Shown: piece by piece, positions 6,693 through 20,913 of the stretch
Layout: the number at the start of each line of letters is the position of its first letter
Position numbering within the stretch: the stretch's first letter is position 1
Source of the DNA: Candidatus Manganitrophaceae bacterium
GTDB taxonomy: Bacteria > Nitrospirota > Nitrospiria > SBBL01 > Manganitrophaceae
Assembly (NCBI GenBank): GCA_016200325.1
Contig: JACQEZ010000001.1
Location: 124,001 to 188,000, forward strand
Length of the DNA: 64,000 nucleotides
Reading direction: 5' to 3'
Notes under the pieces: generated by a model
Told to the model about the DNA's origin: nothing
Databases searched by the model: none
The model's input: only the letters and a program-made list of their open reading frames with translations
Made by a program: the position numbers and the translations under genes

Positions 6693-8159
6693 TTAAATCC
6701 GATAGAGGGCCTGAGCCTGCGTCAACATCTGATTCCAGCGCCGGCAAAGCGCCTCTCGTTTGGTCCCTTTGATTTGAGGAAAAAAGGTTTCTTTGATGAG
6801 AGCGACTTGAAAGTATTTTTGATTGACCCCGTCACGGGCTTTGTCCGTCAGAAGCGCGGCACCCCGAATGGTTGAGTCAGGATCATTGGTAACCGTAATC
6901 GGTTTTCCAAAAAGGTCGGCCTGCATCTGAAGCAAACGCTTGATCTGAGAGCCGCCGCCACTGGCGATGATCTTCCGAATCGGAATCGATTTGTCTTTTT
7001 GGATGAGGGTGAAAATGTCGGTCATCAAAAAGGCGATCCCTTCGACCGCGCCGCGAACCAGGTCTTCCTTGCGGCAGGCGCCGGTCAAGCCGAAGAGGGT
7101 GGTCTGAACCGTGTTGTCCCAATGCGGCGCGCCCAGGCCGATTAAGGCCGGGAGGAAAAAGATCCGCTCGCGCGATTTGGCGCAGGCGGCGTCGATTTCT
7201 TTTTCCGATCGAATCAGCCCCAGCGTGCGAAGCCAGGTGAAGAGCGGGCCGATCCCGTTGACGGTCCCTTCCACGAGATAGGTTGTCTCCTTCTCGCTCG
7301 ACCAGGCGACGCTGGAGAGAAGCCCCGGCACCGTCGCGCGGCGGGTGCCGGTGTTGACCAGAAAGAAACCGCCGGTGCCGTAGTTGACGTTTGCCGCCCC
7401 GCGTGTCAGCCCACCCAATCCCGCAAGCGAGGCCTGCTGATCGCCGATGCTGCAGGTGATCGGAAGGCGCACGCCATCCATCACCGCCTCCCCAAAATCC
7501 GATTGCGTCGGGGCAACCTCCGGGAGAATCTCCCGCGGGATGCGGAAGTGGTAAAGAAGATCGTCGTCCCAATCGCCCTCATCCAAATTATAAAGCAGCA
7601 TCCGCGCGGCGTTGGTCGGATCGGTCCGATGGACGGCGCCTCCGGTGAGATGCCAGATTAAAAAAGTATTGACGGTTCCACAGACGAGATTTTTGATCGA
7701 CCGCCGCTCTTTTTTCATCTGCCGCAACACCGCGGCGAGCTTGGTGGCGGCGTAGTAGGGGGTCAGCGGAAGGCCGGTCTTTTTGATAAAGTCGGGGCGG
7801 GCGAAGTCGGCGAGCCGGTCGCCGGCGCGTCGGTCTTGCCAGCTGATCGCGGGAGAGAGGGGCGCGCCGCTTTGGCGGTCCCAGCAGAGGAACGTGGACC
7901 GCTGGTTTGCAATCCCGAGGGCGATCGGGGGGCTCTTCAGACGGATTGCTTCGCGGACGATTTTTCGGAGAACACGCTGAGTCGTCTTCCAAATCTCGGT
8001 CGGATCATGCTCGATCCAGCCGGGCCGGGGTGAGAAGGTTTGGATCGGCGCGTCGGCGCGGGCGAGGATCTTTCCGTGAGGGTCGAAGAGGGCGGCGCGG
8101 GTACGGCTGCTTCCCTGGTCGAGCGCGGCGATCGCCCAACGCGCGGGGGCTTTCCTCAT
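6693..8159 (-). CDS. glpK: FGGY-family carbohydrate kinase, probably glycerol kinase
   Basis: 488 residues, near the 500 usual for GlpK. It starts with AIAALDQGSSRTRAALFD (the ATP/phosphate-binding motif of the actin-like fold). It has GIANQRSTFLCWD and ISWQDRRA in domain I, IGDQQASLAGLGG (the catalytic Asp region typical of glycerol kinases) and a late IIASGGGSQIKRLLQMQADLFG adenosine motif. It would phosphorylate glycerol or a related polyol in the cytoplasm. The ATG overlaps the stop of the upstream mscS-like gene by four bases (ATGA), so it is the last gene of a coupled leftward operon with a channel and a TPR protein. No glycerol facilitator or glycerol-3-phosphate dehydrogenase is nearby. 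Confidence 0.8.
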   Translation of the reverse strand: MRKAPARWAIAALDQGSSRTRAALFDPHGKILARADAPIQTFSPRPGWIEHDPTEIWKTTQRVLRKIVREAIRLKSPPIALGIANQRSTFLCWDRQSGAPLSPAISWQDRRAGDRLADFARPDFIKKTGLPLTPYYAATKLAAVLRQMKKERRSIKNLVCGTVNTFLIWHLTGGAVHRTDPTNAARMLLYNLDEGDWDDDLLYHFRIPREILPEVAPTQSDFGEAVMDGVRLPITCSIGDQQASLAGLGGLTRGAANVNYGTGGFFLVNTGTRRATVPGLLSSVAWSSEKETTYLVEGTVNGIGPLFTWLRTLGLIRSEKEIDAACAKSRERIFFLPALIGLGAPHWDNTVQTTLFGLTGACRKEDLVRGAVEGIAFLMTDIFTLIQKDKSIPIRKIIASGGGSQIKRLLQMQADLFGKPITVTNDPDSTIRGAALLTDKARDGVNQKYFQVALIKETFFPQIKGTKREALCRRWNQMLTQAQALYRI

Positions 8160-9058
8160 TTGGAGCCCGGCTCTGATCGGGCGCCGTCTCCGGGGGCCAG
8201 GCCCTTCACGTGGATTTCCCGCTGTGGGAAAGGCATCTCGATTCCGTTTTCCTGAAAGAGTCGGTGGATCTGATAACGGAGGTCGCTTAAAGAGCGGGGG
8301 CCGCTCTTCGGCTCCTCAACCCAAAAAGAGAGCTGAAATTGAAGGGCCGAGTCGCCGAAGGCATGAAAGGTGACCTCCGGCTCCGGATGTTGGAGGACCT
8401 GCCGATTGACCCGCGCCGCCTGGAGGAGAAGCGAGGTGACCCGCGTCACGTCCGAACGATAGGCGACGCCGACGATCAAATGAAGCCGGACGCGCGGGTC
8501 TTCGTACGACCAGTTGATCACCCGGCTGGCGACGAAGTCGGAGTTCGGAACGATGATGGCGATGTTGTCGGGGGTGAGGATCGTCGTCGAGCGGATCTTG
8601 ATCTGATAAACGTCGCCGGTGATGTCGCCGACCGAGATCCGGTCGCCGATCTTGATCGGCCGCTCGAAGAGAAGGATGATCCCGGCGACGAAGTTGGAGG
8701 CGATGTTCTGAAGGCCGAACCCGATCCCGACGCTGAGCAGCCCGGCGATGAACGCGAAGCTCGACAGGTCGAGCCCGATGAACTGCAGCCCCAGCACGAG
8801 GCCGACGAACATCAGGAAGTAGTGCGTCAGGCGGATGAAAGTATATTGAAGCCCTTCGGCGATCTTGAAGCGGGGGAAGATCCGTTTGCGAAGGGTTCGT
8901 TGCAGGAACCGGGAGAAGAGGTAGGCGGAGAGGATGAAGAGGGTTGTCCCGAGAAAAGAGATCAGGGTGACCGGGGTCTTCTGAACGTGAAAGAGCGGGG
9001 TGTGGAGGATCTCCGAGAGCTCACGCATCGAATAGCGCAGTGTCTGGTCGCTCGTCAC
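8156..9058 (-). CDS. MscS-family mechanosensitive ion channel
   Basis: 300 residues. There are three membrane helices (about 30-50, 70-95, 100-120), the pore-lining TM3 with the Gly/Ala pattern SVGIGFGLQNIASNFVAGIILL, then the cytoplasmic beta domain starting FERPIKIGDRISVGDITGDV and the line VPNSDFVASRVINWS, all diagnostic for MscS. The size fits the short MscS type. It would open under hypo-osmotic stress at the inner membrane. The start is GTG 9058, overlapping the upstream TPR gene by four bases (GTGA), and the end overlaps the kinase gene. A c-di-AMP turnover pair is transcribed divergently 1 kb away, which is suggestive because c-di-AMP controls osmotic balance in other bacteria. Confidence 0.9.
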   Translation of the reverse strand: MTSDQTLRYSMRELSEILHTPLFHVQKTPVTLISFLGTTLFILSAYLFSRFLQRTLRKRIFPRFKIAEGLQYTFIRLTHYFLMFVGLVLGLQFIGLDLSSFAFIAGLLSVGIGFGLQNIASNFVAGIILLFERPIKIGDRISVGDITGDVYQIKIRSTTILTPDNIAIIVPNSDFVASRVINWSYEDPRVRLHLIVGVAYRSDVTRVTSLLLQAARVNRQVLQHPEPEVTFHAFGDSALQFQLSFWVEEPKSGPRSLSDLRYQIHRLFQENGIEMPFPQREIHVKGLAPGDGARSEPGSK

Positions 9059-10032: not shown

Positions 10033-11415
10033 ATGCGGTATATCGTCGTCTGCGACGACCTTTTCTTCTATGACGTCTTAAAGAGCGTCAGCCAGGTGGA
10101 AGCGGCCTGGCTTTTTCTTGTTCAAGAGCCGGTGCTCGCCAAACAGCTGGAGGTGAGGGGGGTCCCGGTCCTTCAGGGGACCTTTTCAAACGGCGCGATC
10201 TTTAAGAAAGCGAAGATCGATCCCGACGACTGGGTGCTGATTGCAATGGCCGACATCCGGTCGCTTCAACGGGTGAACCGCTCGCTCGCCTCGGAAGGGG
10301 TTCAGCCCTCGCTTGTCCTGACCCGGGAGGCGATCGGCAAGCCGCTCGCCGACCTGAGGACGGTCTCCTGCGGCGAGCTCCTCTCCTCGTCGTTGATGTG
10401 GGAGCTGCATGCCGTCACGCTGCGCGATAAGACCCGAAAGATCCGCCGGCTCCTTGAAGAGGCCGGCTGCATTGTCATCCTGATTCAGGACGATCCCGAC
10501 CCCGACGCCATCGCCTCCGCCGTCGCGCTCCGGACGCTCCTCGGACGGAATAAACTGACGGCGCCGATCGCGTCGTTCGGTGTGGTCGACCGGCCGGAGA
10601 ACATCGCCATGGTCAAGCGGCTGGAGATCGAGGTCGAGCAGATCGATGCCGCGCGGCTGCACGACTTCGACCGCTTCTGCTTCGTCGACACCCAGCCGAG
10701 CCGCTTTCGGGTCAAGTTTCCGCGGGTCGACGTGGTGATCGACCATCATCCGGAAGAAAAAGGATACCCCGCGGCGTTCCGTGACATCCGGCCGAACAAA
10801 GGGGCGACCTCCACCCTCCTGACGGAGTATCTGCGGGCCGACGATGTGAAGATCAGCCAGCGGCTGGCGACGGCGCTTCTCTATGGCATCGGGACCGACA
10901 CCGCGTTCTTGGAGCGGGGGACCCATCCGGCCGATGTCGAGGCCTTCTCTTTTCTCTACCCGCTTGCCAACCATGCGCTGATCCGGCAGATCGAGCGGCC
11001 GGAATTTCCGCAGGAGGAGGCCCGCTTCGTCCAGAAGGCGATTCGGCGCTGGCGGATCGAGCGCAAAATTCTCGTCTCGCATGTCGGACGGGTCCCGCGG
11101 CAGGACATCGTCCCGCGGCTCGCCGATTTTTGCACGCAGGTGGAGGGGGTCGATTGGTCGATCATCTCCGGCATCGTCTCGGGGAACCTCATCGTCTCGG
11201 CGCGGAACATGGGAAATACCGGAAATGCCGGCGGCCTCTTAAAAGAAGCCTTCGGGCGGCTCGGCCAGGCCGGCGGGCATCGATTCATGGCGAAGGCAAC
11301 GATCCCCCTGACGGCCTTCCGCGCCGCCTTCCGAAAGACCGACGAGCGATTCGTCCGCGACAAGCTCTTCGATCTGCTCCTCGAGGTCGCCCGGCGCGGG
11401 ACGATCACCCCATGA
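10033..11415 (+). CDS. RCK/TrkA-N-like domain plus DHH-DHHA1 phosphoesterase (likely c-di-AMP or nano-RNA phosphodiesterase)
   Basis: 460 residues from ATG 10033 (AAGGAG about 13 bases upstream). Residues 1-115 form a Rossmann/RCK-like domain (IVVCDDLFFYDVLKSV, VLQGTFSNGAIFKKAKIDPDDWVLIAM). Residues 145-330 are the DHH domain, with DDPDPDAIASAVAL (153-166), the Asp of CFVDTQPSR (219), DHHP (237-240) and GIGTDTAFL (286-294). The C-terminal DHHA1 domain ends with GQAGGHRFMA (about 420-430). The fold hydrolyses c-di-AMP, pApA or short RNAs in other bacteria. The ATGA overlap with a diadenylate cyclase gene points to c-di-AMP. The RCK-like front end, a ligand-binding domain of K+ channels, is a suggestive regulatory addition. 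Confidence 0.85.
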   Translation: MRYIVVCDDLFFYDVLKSVSQVEAAWLFLVQEPVLAKQLEVRGVPVLQGTFSNGAIFKKAKIDPDDWVLIAMADIRSLQRVNRSLASEGVQPSLVLTREAIGKPLADLRTVSCGELLSSSLMWELHAVTLRDKTRKIRRLLEEAGCIVILIQDDPDPDAIASAVALRTLLGRNKLTAPIASFGVVDRPENIAMVKRLEIEVEQIDAARLHDFDRFCFVDTQPSRFRVKFPRVDVVIDHHPEEKGYPAAFRDIRPNKGATSTLLTEYLRADDVKISQRLATALLYGIGTDTAFLERGTHPADVEAFSFLYPLANHALIRQIERPEFPQEEARFVQKAIRRWRIERKILVSHVGRVPRQDIVPRLADFCTQVEGVDWSIISGIVSGNLIVSARNMGNTGNAGGLLKEAFGRLGQAGGHRFMAKATIPLTAFRAAFRKTDERFVRDKLFDLLLEVARRGTITP

Positions 11416-12359
11416 AGCGGGATGGGAAACGGGACGTCAAGAGGGTTCGATCGATCGCAAAAAAACCGAGTCATGAAATGAATAACATCCTCCTCTCGGC
11501 GGCGGCTGAGGTCAGCTCGAAGGTGGGGGCGCAGGCGATCCTTCTCTACGCCGATTTGGTGAAGGAGGTCGCGCCGCTCAAGGCGCTCGCCAAGGAGATC
11601 GCGCTGGTCCTGGTCACCCGGGGCGAGCGCTCGTTTAAGGAGATGCAGCGCTCTTTCGAGCAGGTCGTCCGGGTGCCTCAAATCGATCTGACCCGGATGG
11701 GGCAGGTGAAGCTCGGCGTCATGATGGCCCTCTCCGCCGGAAAGGTCCAGATGGGGGATCGGATCGTCTGTCTCTCCGGCATTCGGCGGTTCGGATTTCT
11801 CGACAGCATCGTCGTCCTCGACATCGGAAAAGAATTTGAGGTCCTCACCTCCGCCGAGCTCTCCGACCTGACCCGCGAGATCCGCTATGATCTTTTCGAG
11901 GCGATCCTCAATCTGGCGTTGGAGCTGGCGTACCAGGGGCGGGCGGGGAAGATGGTCGGGGCGCTCTTTGTCCTCGGCGACCATGAGCGGGTCTTGCAGC
12001 TCTCCCGGCAGATGATCATCAACCCCTTCCACGGCTATCCTGAGGAGGAGCGGAATGTGCTCGATCCGAAGCTGAAGGAGACGTTGAAAGAGTTTGCGGC
12101 GATCGACGGCGCGTTCATCATCCGGGAAGACGGGGTAATCCTCTCCGCCGGGCGGCATCTCGACGCCGCATTCGAAGGGCGGGATCTTCTCCACGGGCTC
12201 GGAAGCCGGCATCTGGCGGCGGCGGGAATCACGGCGGTGACGCAGGCGCTGGCGGTCGTCGTCTCCGAGTCGAGCGGCGCCGTCCGGATCTTCAAAGGAG
12301 GAGAGACGATTCTGGAATTGGAAAAGGCGGTTCATCGAGAGCGGGAAGAGTCGGTCTGA
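11412..12359 (+). CDS. Diadenylate cyclase (DisA-N/DAC domain, DacZ-like architecture)
   Basis: 315 residues; the ATG overlaps the stop of the phosphodiesterase gene (ATGA). Residues about 24-135 resemble a pyruvate-kinase C-terminal-like domain (AAAEVSSKVGAQAILLYAD, IALVLVTRG). Residues 155-305 form the DAC domain with the two active-site motifs DGA (232-234) and RHLAA (266-270). This domain order matches the archaeal DacZ type rather than DisA (no helix-hairpin-helix DNA-binding tail) or CdaA (no membrane helices). It should make c-di-AMP from two ATP in the cytoplasm. The pairing with its probable hydrolase in one overlapping unit implies coordinated synthesis and breakdown. Another ATG at 11478 is possible but would remove the coupling. 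Confidence 0.85.
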   Translation: MKRDGKRDVKRVRSIAKKPSHEMNNILLSAAAEVSSKVGAQAILLYADLVKEVAPLKALAKEIALVLVTRGERSFKEMQRSFEQVVRVPQIDLTRMGQVKLGVMMALSAGKVQMGDRIVCLSGIRRFGFLDSIVVLDIGKEFEVLTSAELSDLTREIRYDLFEAILNLALELAYQGRAGKMVGALFVLGDHERVLQLSRQMIINPFHGYPEEERNVLDPKLKETLKEFAAIDGAFIIREDGVILSAGRHLDAAFEGRDLLHGLGSRHLAAAGITAVTQALAVVVSESSGAVRIFKGGETILELEKAVHREREESV

Positions 12360-12426: not shown

Positions 12427-13497
12427 ATGACGGAAACAAGACGGGAAGCGCGGTGGGGATGGCTGACGATCCTGTTGCTGGGAATCGGCCTGGTCTATTT
12501 GGCGAAAAGCGTCCTGATCCCTTTTGTTATCGCCCTGCTGTTGGCCTACGCTTTCGATCCGGTCGTCGGTTATTTAGAGCGGCGGCGGGTTCCCCGCTTT
12601 GTCGCCATCTGGACGATTTTGGCGGTGATCGTCGGGTTGTTCGTCCTCTTCCTGCTCGTCGTCATTCCGGTGATTCAATCGGAGCTGACCCGCGCCCTGG
12701 AAGAGCTCCCGGTCTACCTCGAGCGGGTGCAAAAAGAGCTGGTTCCCTATCTGGAGGGCCGATTCGGATTCCATATTCCGAACACCTTTGAGGAGATGAG
12801 CGCGGTGATCGTCCCGCGCTTGAAGGAGCAGGCGCCGAGCATCTTCGAGCCGGTCACGGCGATTCTCCTTTCCTTCTTCTCGAATACCGCGCATCTCCTC
12901 TTCGCGATTGCCAATCTGATCGTTATCCCATTCGCATTTTATTATTTTTTAAAAGATTTTGATCGGCTGAAGCAACGGATCGGCGAATATATTCCCCCCC
13001 GACATCGGCCGGAGGTGCACCGCTGGCTTCACGAGCTCGATCAATCGTTGAGCGGGTTCATCCGGGGGCAGCTCTTGATCGTTTTGATTTTGGCGGGGGC
13101 CTACTCCGCCGGATTGACCCTGATCGGCGTCGAGCTCGCTTTTGTGTTGGGGATCATCGCCGCCTTCGGTGAGATCGTCCCCTACGTCGGCTTCACCGTC
13201 GGCCTCTCTCTTTCCGTCTTGGTCGCCTTTCTCCAATTTCAAGACCTGCTTCACCCTTTTTATGTTCTGCTCCTCTTCGCAGCGATCCAGTCGGTCCAGG
13301 GATTGGTGGTCGCCCCGTTGGTGATGGGGCAGCAGGTGGGGCTTCACCCGTTGGTGGTGATTGCGGCGGTCTACATCGGCGGGGATCTCTTCGGTTTTAT
13401 CGGGATTCTGCTGGCGGTGCCGGGGGCGGCGGTGATGGTCGTTCTCTTCAAAGCGCTGACGGAGCGGTATCGAAAGTCGGTCCTTTATCGCACCTAG
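12427..13497 (+). CDS. AI-2E family transporter (PerM/YdiK-like permease)
   Basis: 356 residues with about seven or eight membrane helices. The pattern is typical: two N-terminal helices (GIGLVYLAKSVLIPFVIALLLAYAFDPVVGYLERR), a soluble amphipathic central section, then the C-terminal signature helices with LGIIAAFGEIVPYVG, SVQGLVVAPLVMGQQVGLHPLVVIAAVYIGG and LFGFIGILLAVPGAA. Family members include autoinducer exporters and Na+(K+)/H+ antiporters. Placed 67 bp after the c-di-AMP pair on the same strand, a role in ion homeostasis is plausible but unproven. The ribosome site before ATG 12427 is weak. Confidence 0.88.
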   Translation: MTETRREARWGWLTILLLGIGLVYLAKSVLIPFVIALLLAYAFDPVVGYLERRRVPRFVAIWTILAVIVGLFVLFLLVVIPVIQSELTRALEELPVYLERVQKELVPYLEGRFGFHIPNTFEEMSAVIVPRLKEQAPSIFEPVTAILLSFFSNTAHLLFAIANLIVIPFAFYYFLKDFDRLKQRIGEYIPPRHRPEVHRWLHELDQSLSGFIRGQLLIVLILAGAYSAGLTLIGVELAFVLGIIAAFGEIVPYVGFTVGLSLSVLVAFLQFQDLLHPFYVLLLFAAIQSVQGLVVAPLVMGQQVGLHPLVVIAAVYIGGDLFGFIGILLAVPGAAVMVVLFKALTERYRKSVLYRT

Positions 13498-14577: not shown

Positions 14578-17500
14578 CTATAAGTGATTCTTCCGCACGC
14601 CGCGGGCTGTGACAATCAGAGCCAAGAAGACGACCCCGCCCCAGGGATAGGCAATCAGGAAAATCAGCGGGGTCAGCGCCCATCGGACCGCCGTCCTCAA
14701 CGGCTCATGGGCCCGGATGACGTCGGCGATCGGCGGGGAGTAGCGGTAGTAGGTTTGAACAAAAAGTTGTCCCGGAAGATTCGTCAAGAGATAGCGGTCC
14801 CTAAACTGACGAAGGACCATGACATGCGGGTCGAGATAACTTCCATAAGCCGCGGTGGCGATGAAGCAGCCGCCTCCCCCGCCCCCTCCGCTGCTGCCGG
14901 AAGCGACTGGCGCCGGCTTGGTGGCGGGGCCGGCGATCGTCTCAATGACCCCGTTGGCGGTATGGTCGCTGTCTCCGACATCGCCATCTTTTAACTTGAG
15001 GGTCACTGTATTTCCCCCGGAGAGGAGCGATCCGGTTGCGTCGGCCGACACCATCTGGTTGACGCCGCTGTCATACCGCAGCCAGAGGACCTGCCCGGTG
15101 ATCGGCGCCGGGAAGGTGGCGCTGACGACTGTTTCTGCACCGGGGGTGAGTCCTTTGATTTTTAACGAAAGGACACCGACGGGGAAAGTCAGATCGCCGG
15201 GGATCGTGGTCAACGTGGCGGGATCGATGATCTCTGCCTTCTCGAAGGCTCCCGCGGAGATGGAAAGGATGACCGATCCATTTCCGCGCGGGTTTGCCAC
15301 GGTGATCGTATCCGACGCGCCGACCTGCGGACCGGCCAACGGAACGGTCGGCGTCGGCACCGAGGGAGAGGCGATCGCCTGCAATCCGGTGGCATCGAGG
15401 GCGTCGAAGTAATACGTGTAGTCGGCCCCTTCCGGAAGCGGGTTGTTGTAGCTATAGAGAATGCCGCCGACCGGATCTCCCTTTTCAAGCGACATCGCGA
15501 ATGGACTTCCGGTGACCTCTTTTCCCCCTTTGAGGAGATGCAGCCGCGGGGTGCCGGCGAGCGGGAGATCTCCGTCGGCGTCTTTGTAGGTCACGCGGAA
15601 TTTAAACGGAGTGTCGGCGGTGCCGGTCTCGGGATCGAGGCCGTCGGTCTGATAATTGGCCTCCCCGGTCCATTGCAGCGTGGGGGCGGTCCCAGTCGAT
15701 TTCGGGGTGCTTAAGTGCGACTCGATCACCTGGTATGGGAGGGTGCTCGACGACCAATTCAGCTGCAGGGAGGCCGTTCCTGTATTTTCGAAATATTCCA
15801 ATTTGAGATTGTGCGAGCCGGCGGTGAGCGCCACCCCCTTCTCCAATGAAACCAAGCCGTCGGTCTCCTTCCACTGGTCGATCAAAATCGCCCCGTCGAT
15901 CCAGAGACGGACCCCATCGGTCGTAACGACGTTGAAGACATAGGTGTCATCCGTATCGATCTGAATCTGTCCGGTCCAGCGGACCGAGAAGGTGTCGGGA
16001 GCAATCGCTGGGGCAGACGGTCCAAGGTCAGGCGCTCCGGTTCCCCAGGAGAAATCGATCTTCGGATCGGTTTGGGTTGAAACAAACTCGGTAAAATCAG
16101 GATTATTGTAGTAGTCCCCTTTTAAGCCGGGACAGCCGACCGTCAAGGTGAGATTGACCGATTGCGTGACCGGGCCGCTGCTTGCAATCACCGTTAAGGG
16201 ATAATCGTGACAGTCGACCGTCTTGCCTACATTGAGGGTCAATGTTGACTTGGCCGAGCCGCCTGCGGGCGGGGTGACCGAAGCGGGGGAGAACGTTCCA
16301 GTGATTCCGTTAGGGAGAGGAGCCCCGCCGAGCTGGAAGGAGACAGCCTGAGTGAATCCTTGCGTTCCCTGGACATTCAGCGAGACCGATCCCGAGCCCC
16401 CTTGCGGAATGGAAACCGAAGCGCTTTCCGCAGAGAGGCTGAATCCGCTCGAGAAGACGGCATTGACGAACTTATTTTTATCCATCGTCAGGCTGCAGGT
16501 GGTCTGGCTGCCGCTGCAGTCGCCGCTCCACCCGAGGAAAGGGGCGCCCGGTCTGGGGGTGGCGAGCAAGGTGACAGAGGCGCTGGGCTTGAGTGGACCG
16601 GAGGTGCAGATGTCTCCGCAGTTGATCCCGCTCATCCCGTCCGGATCGGTGCTCGTGACGATCCCATTTCCAGTTTTATTCACGGTCACGGTGAAGCTGT
16701 TCGGCGGGTTGAAGGTGGCAGTGATTTCCTGTGCTCCGTCTAAAGTCACGACACAGGTTCCAGTTCCGCTGCAGTTTCCACCGGACCAGCCGGCAAAGGT
16801 CGAACCGCTCGCCGGGGTGGCCGTCAATGTAATTGAGGTGCCGACCGTAAATGAGGCCGAGCAGGTACCGCCGCAGCTGATCCCGGCGGGGCTGGAGCCG
16901 ATCGTTCCGGTTCCGGGTCCTGCCTTCTTTACCGTCAGACTAAAGGTTTTCAAGGTAAAGGTGGCAGTGACGTTCTTAATTCCATCCATCGTCACAGAAC
17001 AGGTCCCCGTTCCACTACAGCCACCCGACCAGCCAGCAAAGTCGGAATTTGTAGAGGGATTTGCCGTCAGCGTAACCGTTGCCCCGCTGTTGAAGGAAGC
17101 CGAACAGGTTCCCCCGCAGGTAATACCGGTGGGGGAAGAAGTCACCGTTCCTGCACCGGTACCGGCTTTGGTCACAATGATATTGAAGGTCTTGAGAGTA
17201 AAGATGGCGGTCACGCTCTTGGCGCCATCGATGATGACGACGCAACTTCCTGTTCCGCTGCAGGCCCCCGACCAGCCCGTAAAGAGAGAGTCCGTATCGG
17301 CGGTGGCGGTTAATGTGACCGAGGTGCCCGAATTATAGGAAGCCGAGCAGGTCGCGCCGCAATTGATCCCTGTAGGGGCGGAGGTGATGGTTCCCGTTCC
17401 ATTGCCGGACTTGGTAACGGTAAGGCCAAGCGTCTTCACCGTAAAGGTGGCGGTTACCGTCTTGGCGGCATCCACTGTGACGACGCAATCTCCAGTGCCG

Positions 17501-20500
17501 GTACAGCCGCTGCCGCCCCATCCGGTGAAGGTCGAATTGCTGTCCGGATGGGCAGATAAGGTCACTACCTTTCCGGCGCTGAAGAAGAGGGAGCAGGTAG
17601 GACTGCAGTCGATTCCCGCAGGAGCGGAAGAAATGCTGCCGGTTCCATTCCCCGCCTTGACCACCGTAAGAGAGAAGGTCTGGGTGCCGAAGTTGGCAGT
17701 AATGGACTTATTGGAATCAACCGTCACGCTGCAAGAGGTTCCTGTGCTGCTGTTGCAGCCGGACCAACCCGAAAAGGTGGCATTCGGATCTGGGGATGCC
17801 GTCAGAGTGACCGTCGTGCCAATCGTATAGGAGGCCGAACAGCTGCTTCCGCAACTGATTCCTGAAGGGGCGGAGGTTACGGTACCATTGCCGGCCGTGG
17901 TAACCGAGAGGGTGAAGCTCTTTAGCGCAAACGTCGCGGTAACACTCTTTGCCGCGTCTACGGTGATCACGCAATTTCCCGTTCCGCTGCAGGCGCCTGA
18001 CCAGCCGGTGAAGGTGGAGTCAGAAGCAGGGCTTGCGGTCAGCGTTACTGAAGCCCCGCTGTTGAAGGAAGCCGAGCAGGTTCCGCCGCAATCAATACCG
18101 CCAGGAGAGGAAGTGACCGTTCCCGTTCCGGCGCCTGCTTTACTGACGGTCATGCTGAAGGTGCGGAGAGTAAAGGTGGCGGTCACGCTCTTGGCGCCAT
18201 CAATGGTGACGACGCAGCTCCCCGTTCCGCTGCAGGCCCCCGACCAGCCCGTAAAGAGAGAGTTTGCATCGGCGGTGGCGGTTAATGTGACCGAGGTGCC
18301 TGAATTGTAGGAGGCCGAACAGGTCGCGCCGCAATTAATCCCGGCGGGGGAAGAGGCAACGGTCCCTGTTCCTGACCCGGTCTTGGCGACGGAGAGACTA
18401 AAGGTCTTTAGGGTAAAGGTCGCCGTGACACTCCTCGCTGCATCCATTGTCACGGTGCAGGGGCCGGTTCCGGTGCAGGCGCCCGACCAGCCGGTGAAGT
18501 CGGAGTTGGCTGAGGGGGTCGCGGTCAGGGTGACGTTCGCTCCGAAGTTGAAGTTCGCGGTGCAGGTGGCGCCGCAGTCGATTCCGGTTGGGGAGGAGGT
18601 GACGGCTCCGCTCCCGGTGCCGCCCTTGGTCACGTTCAGAGCGAAGTTTTGAACATTAAATGTGGCGGTCACAGACTTTGTGGCGTTCATCGTCACGGTA
18701 CAAGTGTTTCCAGAAGTGCTATCGCAGCCCGACCAGCCGGCGAAGGTGGCGTTCGATGCCGGGCTGGCCGTCAAGGTGACCGAGGTTCCGATATTAAACG
18801 AGGCCGAACAGGTGGTCCCGCAGCTGATTCCCCCCGGCGCAGAGGTAAGGGTTCCGCTCCCGGCCCCCGATTTTGCTGCGGTGAGGGAGAAGGTCTTGAG
18901 GGTGAATGTGGCCGTCACCGATTTTGCAGCACTCATTGTCACGGAGCAGGAAGCGCCTGTGGCCGTGTCGCAGCCGGTCCAGCCGGAAAAGTTGGAGTCA
19001 GCGACCGGTGCGGCGGTGAGGGTGACGGAGGTGCCGGTGTTGAAGAAGCCGGAGCAGTCGGTTCCGCAGCTCACGCCGGCCGGCAAGGAGGTGACTGTCC
19101 CGGAGCCGTTGCCGTCTTTCAAGACAGTCAGGGCGACAGTCTGAATGCCAAAGCTGGCGGCAGCCGATCGGTCGGTATTCATCGCGAGGGTGCAGCTGCT
19201 TCCCGAAGCGCTGTCGCAGCCCGACCAACCGGAGAAGGTGGCGCCGCCGGCGGGGGTGGCGGTTAGCGTCACGGAGGTACCGACGGTCAGCGTGGCGGTG
19301 CAGACATTCCCATTGGCGCCGCAGTTAATTCCGCCGACATTGCTGGTCACCGTTCCATTCCCGGAGGTGGCAACCGAGAGGGTAAAGGCTTTCAGGGTGA
19401 ACGTCGCGGTGACGCTTTTTGCCGCATCCACGGTGACGACGCAGCTGCCGGTCCCACTGCAAGCGCCCGACCAGCCGGCGAAGGTCGAATTGGAGGCGGG
19501 GCTGGCGGTCAGCGTGACCGAAGTTGAAATATTGAAAGAAGCCGAGCAGGCGGCACCGCAATCAATCCCGACAGGAGAAGAGGTCACCGTTCCTGCACCA
19601 GTCCCTGCTTTCGTAACCGAGAGGGTAAATGTCTTGAGGGTAAAGGTGGCGGTGACATTCTTTGTCCCATCGATGGTCACAGAACAGGTTCCGCTCCCGC
19701 TGCAGGCGCCCGACCAGCCGGCGAAATCGGAGCTGGCCGAGGCGGTCGCCGTTAAGGTGACGGCGGTGCCGGAATTGAAGCTGGATGAACAGGTTGCCCC
19801 GCAATCGATGCCGGTTGGAGAAGACGTCACCGTTCCGCTCCCGGTGCCGCTCTTGGTCACGTTCAGTGCAAACGTTTGAATGTTGAATGTGGCCGTCACC
19901 GATTTTGCAGCACCCATCGTCACGGTGCAGGAGGTGCCGGCGGTACTGTCGCAGCCGGACCAGCCGATAAAGTTGGAGTTGGACGACGGGCTGGCGGTTA
20001 ACGTCACGACCGTTGCCGCGTTAAAAGTGGCAGAGCAGGTGGCCCCGCAGTTGATTCCCGCGGGAGCGGAGGTGACCGTTCCGGTTCCGGTCCCCCCCTT
20101 CGCGACCGTTAAGGCAAAGGTCTGGAGGGTAAAAGAGGCGGTGACCGATTTGGCGGCGCTCATTGTGACCGAACAGGTCGTTGACAGTGTGCTGTTACAC
20201 CCGGTCCATCCGGTAAAGGTCGAATTCGTTCCGGGGATTGCGGTGAGCGTCACCACCGTCTGGAGGTTGAAGGAGGCCGAACAGGTCGCCCCGCAATCGA
20301 TCCCGGCCGGGGCGGAGATGACGGTGCCTGCCCCGGTGCCGGTCTTGGTCACCGACAGGGTGACCGGCGGCTGGTAAATGATCTCCGCATAGAGCTCGGT
20401 AATCCGATAGTCTGTCGAACGCTCGGTATCGTCCACCAGCGCGTTCAGGGCAGTGATGTCGGCCCAGGTCCAAGCGGTGCCGGTGCTTGGATTGATCGGA

Positions 20501-20913
20501 TAGAGGATGCCGGAATAGCCTTGGTAGGAGCTGCTGCTGGTAATGCTGCTGCTCCAGAAATCGGTTCCGTTGGTTTGGAGGCCGATCCGGAATTGGTCGC
20601 TGCCAAAACTAAAGCTGCTATCGGTCCTGAGAACTGTTTTGATTTGGACTGAAACGATCGTTCCTAAATCTGACGCATTGTCCAACGCAAGGCGCGCCGT
20701 ATCATTGCTTCGGAGGAGTCCATAAGAAGTGTTTCCGTCATTGGTATCGAGCGCGGTCGCGGCGGTGCCGCCGACATATTGGCTTATCTGATCGTTGGTG
20801 GCGGAGCCGGCGGGATGAAGAAGGAGGGTGTCGGCATAGGCGGAGCTGTTCCAAGAAAAAAGCGTTGCCCAGGCGAGCAGCGCCACGGTTGCCAGAAAAT
20901 GCGGTTGTTTCAT
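14578..20913 (-). CDS. Giant secreted surface protein with 16 Cys-rich InlB-B-like repeats, PA14 domain and CFI-box C-terminus
   Basis: 2111 residues. A Sec signal (1-28, ending AYADT) precedes a 150-residue beta-rich N-terminal domain. Sixteen tandem repeats of about 81 residues follow (divergent InlB B-repeat type), each with CGATC or similar, FxGWSGxC and SVTATF cores and usually four cysteines. Next come an Ig-like domain ([14 protein letters not shown]), a PA14-type domain ([42 protein letters not shown]), two further beta modules, and a glycine run leading into [16 protein letters not shown] (the CFI-box C-terminal motif), finishing with a membrane helix and basic tail. PA14 domains often bind carbohydrate; the long repeat stalk suggests an adhesin or matrix protein. 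Start ATG 20913 has a GAGGGGGG ribosome site. Confidence 0.88.
16455..20365 (-). repeat. Array of 16 in-frame coding repeats of about 244 bp
   Basis: The repeats encode the stalk of the giant surface protein. Each unit translates to a segment starting like LTVTKxGxGxGTVTSxPxGIxCG and ending like [11 protein letters not shown]. Units vary from about 78 to 83 codons and most differ from each other at many positions. Repeats 9 (near 18200-18380) and 13 (near 17220-17400), counted from the protein start, share long identical DNA stretches, showing recent duplication or conversion. Repeats 5 and 11 are the shorter variant lacking two residues before the glycine turn. Confidence 0.88.

Follow-up and report, generated by a model that had tools for sequence, protein, structure and literature searches.

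The window analyzed here, a stretch of 64,000 nucleotides from the genome of a member of Candidatus Manganitrophaceae (Nitrospirota), a family with manganese oxidizers (PMC9040806), contains two genes on the same strand that share four nucleotides. The upstream gene encodes a phosphoesterase of the DHH-DHHA1 type that carries an RCK_N-like domain at its front and is presumed to be a c-di-AMP/pApA phosphodiesterase (called the hydrolase below), and the downstream gene encodes a DacZ-like diadenylate cyclase. A gene for an AI-2E family transporter follows and is probably the third gene of the operon. Rfam and tRNA scans of the 64-kb window returned no matches. The features of the locus are as follows.

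10033..11415, + strand: gene for the hydrolase (RCK_N-like domain followed by DHH-DHHA1), 460 aa, ATG at 10033 and TGA at 11415 (Pfam, fold, synteny)
10033..10413, + strand: RCK_N/TrkA-N-like Rossmann domain without the Gly-rich nucleotide loop, residues 1 to about 127
10486..10506, + strand: DHH motif I, Q152-D158 (QDDPDPD), with Gln152 in the usual place of His (alignments)
10741..10749, + strand: DHH motif D237 H238 H239, intact
11412..12359, + strand: gene for the DacZ-like diadenylate cyclase, 315 aa, ATG at 11412 and TGA at 12359 (Pfam, NCBIfam, fold)
11412..11415, + strand: ATGA start/stop overlap of the hydrolase and cyclase genes, also in congeners (L056-L060)
11490..11849, + strand: DacZ_P (pyruvate-kinase C-terminal-like) sensor domain of the cyclase, residues 27-146 (Pfam)
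11928..12305, + strand: DAC catalytic domain of the cyclase, residues 173-298, with DGA (232-234) and GSRHL (264-268) (Pfam, alignment)
12427..13497, + strand: AI-2E family transporter gene 3' of the pair (PF01594, 214 bits; synteny)

Conservation and surroundings of the gene pair

The initial annotation had placed a DHH-DHHA1 gene and a diadenylate cyclase gene here, overlapping by ATGA, and on this point it was right: the coordinates are exact and the overlap recurs in congeners. The order hydrolase-dacZ-AI-2E transporter, together with the 4-nucleotide overlap, is common to five congeners (G001-G005). Both frames are intact and under purifying selection in four of them (G001, G002, G003, and G005). 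In the fifth, G004 (L060:8349-8757), order and overlap are kept and the dacZ frame is broken after a homopolymer run of A, probably through a sequencing error in this MAG. A longer hydrolase frame beginning at GTG 10006 is possible; the congener hydrolases align from MRYI, that is, from ATG 10033.

Pairwise dN/dS among the congeners was about 0.04 to 0.36 for the hydrolase and 0.07 to 0.27 for the cyclase, values that mark both genes as encoding maintained proteins. Within the hydrolase, the ratio was lowest in the DHH part (0.04 to 0.16) and reached 0.11 to 0.36 in the N-terminal domain; within the cyclase, it was 0.07 to 0.12 in the DAC half and 0.13 to 0.27 in the DacZ N-terminal half. The fastest-evolving part of the pair is the RCK_N-like domain. 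Because the arrangement recurs in congeners and both genes show such ratios, neither the two open reading frames nor the ATGA can be attributed to chance.

Overlaps of the ATGA type lead to translational coupling of the two genes involved, and they do not fix stoichiometry. The earlier proposal that the overlap locks the ratio of the two proteins was thus too strong: coupling is all that it suggests, and the GGAGG- or GAGAGG-type sequence found before the overlap in the congeners is missing from the window copy.

Several neighboring genes deserve mention. A fusion of an ABC ATPase with universal stress protein (USP) domains, the latter in two stretches (206-2086, + strand), is conserved near the pair in those congeners whose contigs reach that far. 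In KdpD, a USP domain is reported to bind c-di-AMP (PMC4686210), and by analogy the ABC ATPase-USP fusion is a possible candidate target of this messenger. On the minus strand, a 2,111-aa, secreted-looking protein (14578-20913) in which a GI[DN]CGxxCSASF...TLTAxP...FxGWSG module recurs many times is likewise conserved in congeners, and a gene for an MscS-type channel (8156-9058) also lies near the pair. In Haloferax volcanii, dacZ forms an operon with mscS2, whereas the window dacZ stands with the DHH gene; a parallel between the neighboring mscS gene and the haloarchaeal dacZ-mscS2 arrangement was considered and rejected as a conserved link, the channel gene being absent from this place in two congeners (L058 and L059).

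The DacZ-like cyclase and its bacterial relatives

Both parts of the cyclase scored above their Pfam cut-offs, DAC (PF02457) with 80.8 bits against 27 and DacZ_P with 46.2 against 27.4, confirming the DacZ-like architecture (PK_C-like plus DAC) proposed for it. The NCBIfam model for the haloarchaeal DacZ equivalog (NF041371) gave 151 bits against a cut-off of 430, a shortfall which indicates that the protein is a relative of haloarchaeal DacZ and not an equivalog. The fold of the AlphaFold model (pLDDT 80) matches CdaA and DisA, with a globular alpha/beta domain at the N terminus in place of the TM helices of the CdaA type. An alignment of 22 DacZ proteins shows conserved DG (of DGA), RH (of RHR), and SESxG residues; the third position of DGA is A in every row except one, which reads DGS. 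The third RHR position is Leu here and in the genus and I, V, or Q in the related bacterial branch, and this non-Arg residue (I/V/Q/L) extends throughout the Nitrospinota/Desulfobacterota branch, which stays conserved. The window cyclase is the sole DAC of a 99%-complete genome, in which no c-di-AMP riboswitch (RF00379) was found. From its homology, we strongly expect the cyclase to make c-di-AMP.

The same PK_C-like N-terminal domain and C-terminal DAC occur in DacZ of H. volcanii (HVO_1660) and DacY/CdaZ of Methanocaldococcus (PMC6741144), and the likeness includes the DAC catalytic residues and a single DAC per genome. H. volcanii DacZ makes c-di-AMP, with Mn2+ only (PMC6741144). The window protein differs from archaeal DacZ in the Leu at the third RHR position and in its nearest relatives, which are bacterial: they belong to the Nitrospinota, Desulfobacterota (Syntrophales/Smithella), Tectomicrobia, and Nitrospirota, and those of the first three phyla share about 44 to 56% identity over the full length. 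The description of the cyclase as archaeal-type rather than DisA or CdaA therefore holds in its contrast with DisA and CdaA but not in its first half, given these relatives and the bacterial DacZ homologs already reported (PMC6741144).

In a tree of 32 sequences, Manganitrophaceae DacZ grouped with full support with a bacterial branch composed of Nitrospinota, Desulfobacterota, Tectomicrobia, MAGs labeled Deltaproteobacteria, and one Nitrospirota MAG, while a second Nitrospirota DacZ lineage was placed away from it. No DAC was detectable in other members of the same order. In most DAC-bearing Nitrospirota the DAC match scores much higher and lies in a frame of 255 to 340 aa, as expected of CdaA, and these are putative CdaA proteins. 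Horizontal gain and differential loss are both possible origins of the Manganitrophaceae dacZ.

The usual neighbors of dacZ in Desulfobacterota are a divergent sigma-32-like gene on one side and clpB on the other, with the hydrolase gene at a separate place in the genome. The sigma-32-like gene was divergent in 51 of 74 analyzable dacZ loci (L071, L076, L078, and L079 among them), clpB was codirectional at 55 loci in Syntrophales and other Desulfobacterota, and a dnaJ-like gene lies 3' of dacZ in a member of the Tectomicrobia (L077). These neighborhoods suggest that DacZ may be linked to heat-shock and proteostasis genes. A stand-alone DacZ_P protein of 142 aa (L061:1447-1872, minus strand; 48.9 bits), adjoining a PAS-histidine kinase-like gene, indicates that the domain is not restricted to cyclases.

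The hydrolase subfamily and its association with DAC genes

Pfam recognized DHH (39.9 bits, cut-off 28.1) and DHHA1 (28.7 bits, cut-off 25.9) in order in the hydrolase, and its NCBIfam matches were all far below cut-off. By fold, its AlphaFold model (pLDDT 85) came closest to the pApA-bound catalytic domain of GdpP, to TmPDE, and to Rv2837c. With the GdpP catalytic domain and the DhhP-type phosphodiesterases (TmPDE, TM1595; Rv2837c), the protein shares the DHH-DHHA1 fold and the DHH, Asp, and GGH residues; it differs from them in its RCK_N-like front domain, in its motif-I Gln, and in being only about 15 to 21% identical, and from GdpP in having no TM, PAS, or GGDEF part (Pfam found no match to PAS or GGDEF).

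The His of motif I is a presumed metal ligand in DHH enzymes. Of the metal-site set His-x-x-PDxD, D, DHH, D, and GGH, the window hydrolase has everything except this His, and alignments to GdpP, TmPDE, and the genome's own NrnA, which has His there, place Gln152 exactly at its position; the motif was also aligned across 19 homologs. The 20 subfamily members aligned all share D156, D158, D219, D237-H238-H239, D289, and the DHHA1 GGH. Gln is found at motif I in the RCK_N-bearing homologs aligned or read, and short relatives without RCK_N mostly have Tyr, Phe, or other residues there, with HNNPDPD in a few (L177-L179). This Gln, which the initial annotation missed, bears on whether the hydrolase cleaves c-di-AMP. 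The genome encodes three DHH proteins, namely RecJ, a canonical NrnA beside truB, and the window hydrolase, and since NrnA has an intact motif I, the window protein is free for a special role.

The assignment of an RCK/TrkA-N-like front domain, although sub-threshold in Pfam (TrkA_N, 15.4 bits against 23.8), is supported at the level of fold. A profile of 14 N-terminal domains, compared with PDB sequences, had its best match in 3llv, an "exopolyphosphatase-related protein" (E=2e-4), with weak matches to TrkA TM1088B and KtrC, and strands and helices alternate in the AlphaFold model as they do in an RCK_N Rossmann domain. The Gly-rich loop (GxGxxG) is replaced by CDDLFFYDVL in the window protein and is absent in 14 of 14 homologs aligned; the genome's own TrkA keeps it (GGGKVGYNL). 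With the loop gone, NAD binding of the usual kind, which had been suggested for the front domain, is unlikely. The other suggested ligand, c-di-AMP at residues 1-115, fares no better: c-di-AMP binds RCK_C domains, Pfam found no RCK_C/TrkA_C match in the hydrolase, and the DHH domain comes directly after RCK_N, so that the protein lacks the portion with which RCK proteins of potassium channels bind c-di-AMP. TrkA/KtrA RCK proteins thus have the RCK_N fold in common with the hydrolase, which is distinguished from them by the lack of both RCK_C and the Gly-rich loop. The structure 3llv, which probably represents the NAD(P)-binding, RCK_N-like part of a DHH-type protein from Archaeoglobus, suggests that the RCK_N-DHH fusion already exists in archaea; unlike the window hydrolase, it still has a Gly-containing loop (GSEAAGVGL).

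RCK_C was found in five other proteins of the genome, comprising a Na/H exchanger, TrkA, two permeases of the Asp-Al-exchanger type, and one weak match. These are possible c-di-AMP targets, a suggestion weakened by the presence of RCK_C in 13 of 14 control genomes as well.

Among 296 Nitrospirota genomes, 22 were found to carry the hydrolase subfamily; among 247 genomes of Desulfobacterota, the phylum to which a Smithella record belongs, 164 did. A DAC occurs in each of the 15 Nitrospirota carriers of good quality (base rate, 174/325; p=7e-5), and in Desulfobacterota a DAC is present in 156 of 164 carriers and 64 of 83 noncarriers (odds ratio, 5.8; p=5e-5), p values that ignore shared ancestry and rest on genome lists whose overlap was counted by hand. 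The statistical association is with DAC genes in general: the DAC of hydrolase-bearing Nitrospirota is usually of a type other than DacZ, and specificity for DacZ was unsupported inside this phylum (3 of 22 hydrolase genomes with DacZ; p=0.16). Fourteen of 20 genomes of DacZ-bearing relatives carry the subfamily, in no case beside dacZ. A widespread phosphodiesterase-dacZ cassette was also rejected, since in the set of 80 nearest dacZ loci from GTDB genomes the gene is adjacent at only 2, both from Manganitrophaceae; at 60 of the other loci 1.5 kb or more of sequence upstream is available and is hydrolase-free, and 18 have less than 1.5 kb.

Proposed function of the pair

Each protein belongs to a known kind, as a member or a variant, and together the two genes probably form a pair that makes and breaks c-di-AMP. 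In this make-and-break model, the DacZ-like cyclase would condense two ATP into c-di-AMP, with its PK_C-like N-terminal domain acting as a sensor, and the upstream DHH-DHHA1 protein would degrade c-di-AMP and/or pApA, its RCK_N-like domain serving as a regulatory or dimerization module in which the classic NAD loop is no longer used. Cotranscription, and translational coupling through the ATGA, would supply the capacity for synthesis and turnover from one message. What is understood of c-di-AMP biology makes a tie to potassium or osmotic control conceivable.

In favor of this model stand the gene structure, the domain and fold matches, the conservation of the pair, the single DAC of the genome, the separate NrnA, and the statistical association of the subfamily with DAC genes. 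The weak link is the substrate of the hydrolase, given Gln152 and the varied substrates of DHH proteins. Also counting against the model are the restriction of the adjacency to Manganitrophaceae, the missing correlation with DacZ inside Nitrospirota, the Leu at the third RHR position, and the lack of a c-di-AMP riboswitch. DHH-DHHA1 enzymes such as NrnA and DhhP accept pApA and short RNA, and the sequence matches to TmPDE, which takes pApA and c-di-AMP to AMP, are as good as those to GdpP; these points, with the low NCBIfam scores, would suit a genuine cyclase accompanied by a general hydrolase of pApA, nanoRNA, or pAp that is connected to c-di-AMP only through clearing of the linear product. 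We regard this as unlikely in a genome that already has a canonical NrnA, for a gene that overlaps the only DAC gene and belongs to a subfamily that follows DAC genes across two phyla. A catalytically weak or dead DHH protein, which as a sensor or partner would bind c-di-AMP or AMP and regulate the neighboring cyclase, would agree with the His-to-Gln exchange at motif I of the RCK_N-bearing members examined, with the usually regulatory nature of RCK-type domains, and with the start/stop overlap; the invariance of the other motif residues in 20 of 20 subfamily members and the low dN/dS of the DHH part (about 0.04 to 0.16) are, however, what an enzyme would show, and we consider such a protein improbable. 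Doubt can also be cast on the cyclase, in which Leu replaces the third RHR Arg and which scores below the equivalog cut-off, but the DG, RH, and SESxG residues, the strong DAC score, and the conserved Nitrospinota/Desulfobacterota branch in which all members have a non-Arg residue at that position make an inactive enzyme, or one with another product, very improbable.

The make-and-break model can be carried further. It is possible, if doubtful, that RCK_N-DHH-DHHA1 proteins are a distinct type of c-di-AMP hydrolase with a Gln/Tyr metal site, in which the RCK_N relic senses a non-NAD ligand such as AMP/ATP or the reaction product; the type would span Nitrospirota, Nitrospinota, Tectomicrobia, and Desulfobacterota and would be wired directly to the synthase in Manganitrophaceae. 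If so, a relative of potassium-channel domains would gate the breakdown of a potassium-regulating messenger.

Our search of the literature, partial in its coverage, found no description of a synthase/hydrolase overlap, of a loop-less RCK_N domain joined to a Gln-type DHH domain, or of the association between the subfamily and DAC genes, and by title and abstract nothing relevant to an RCK_N-DHH c-di-AMP phosphodiesterase. Little experimental work on c-di-AMP was found for Nitrospirota or Desulfobacterota, phyla with many DAC genes. The compact two-protein system of Manganitrophaceae could show whether a DHH phosphodiesterase of this kind works without the motif-I His and what a loop-less RCK_N domain senses, and the overlap with the synthase gene makes this uncharacterized DHH subfamily a candidate for the hydrolase of numerous genomes in Desulfobacterota and Nitrospirota.
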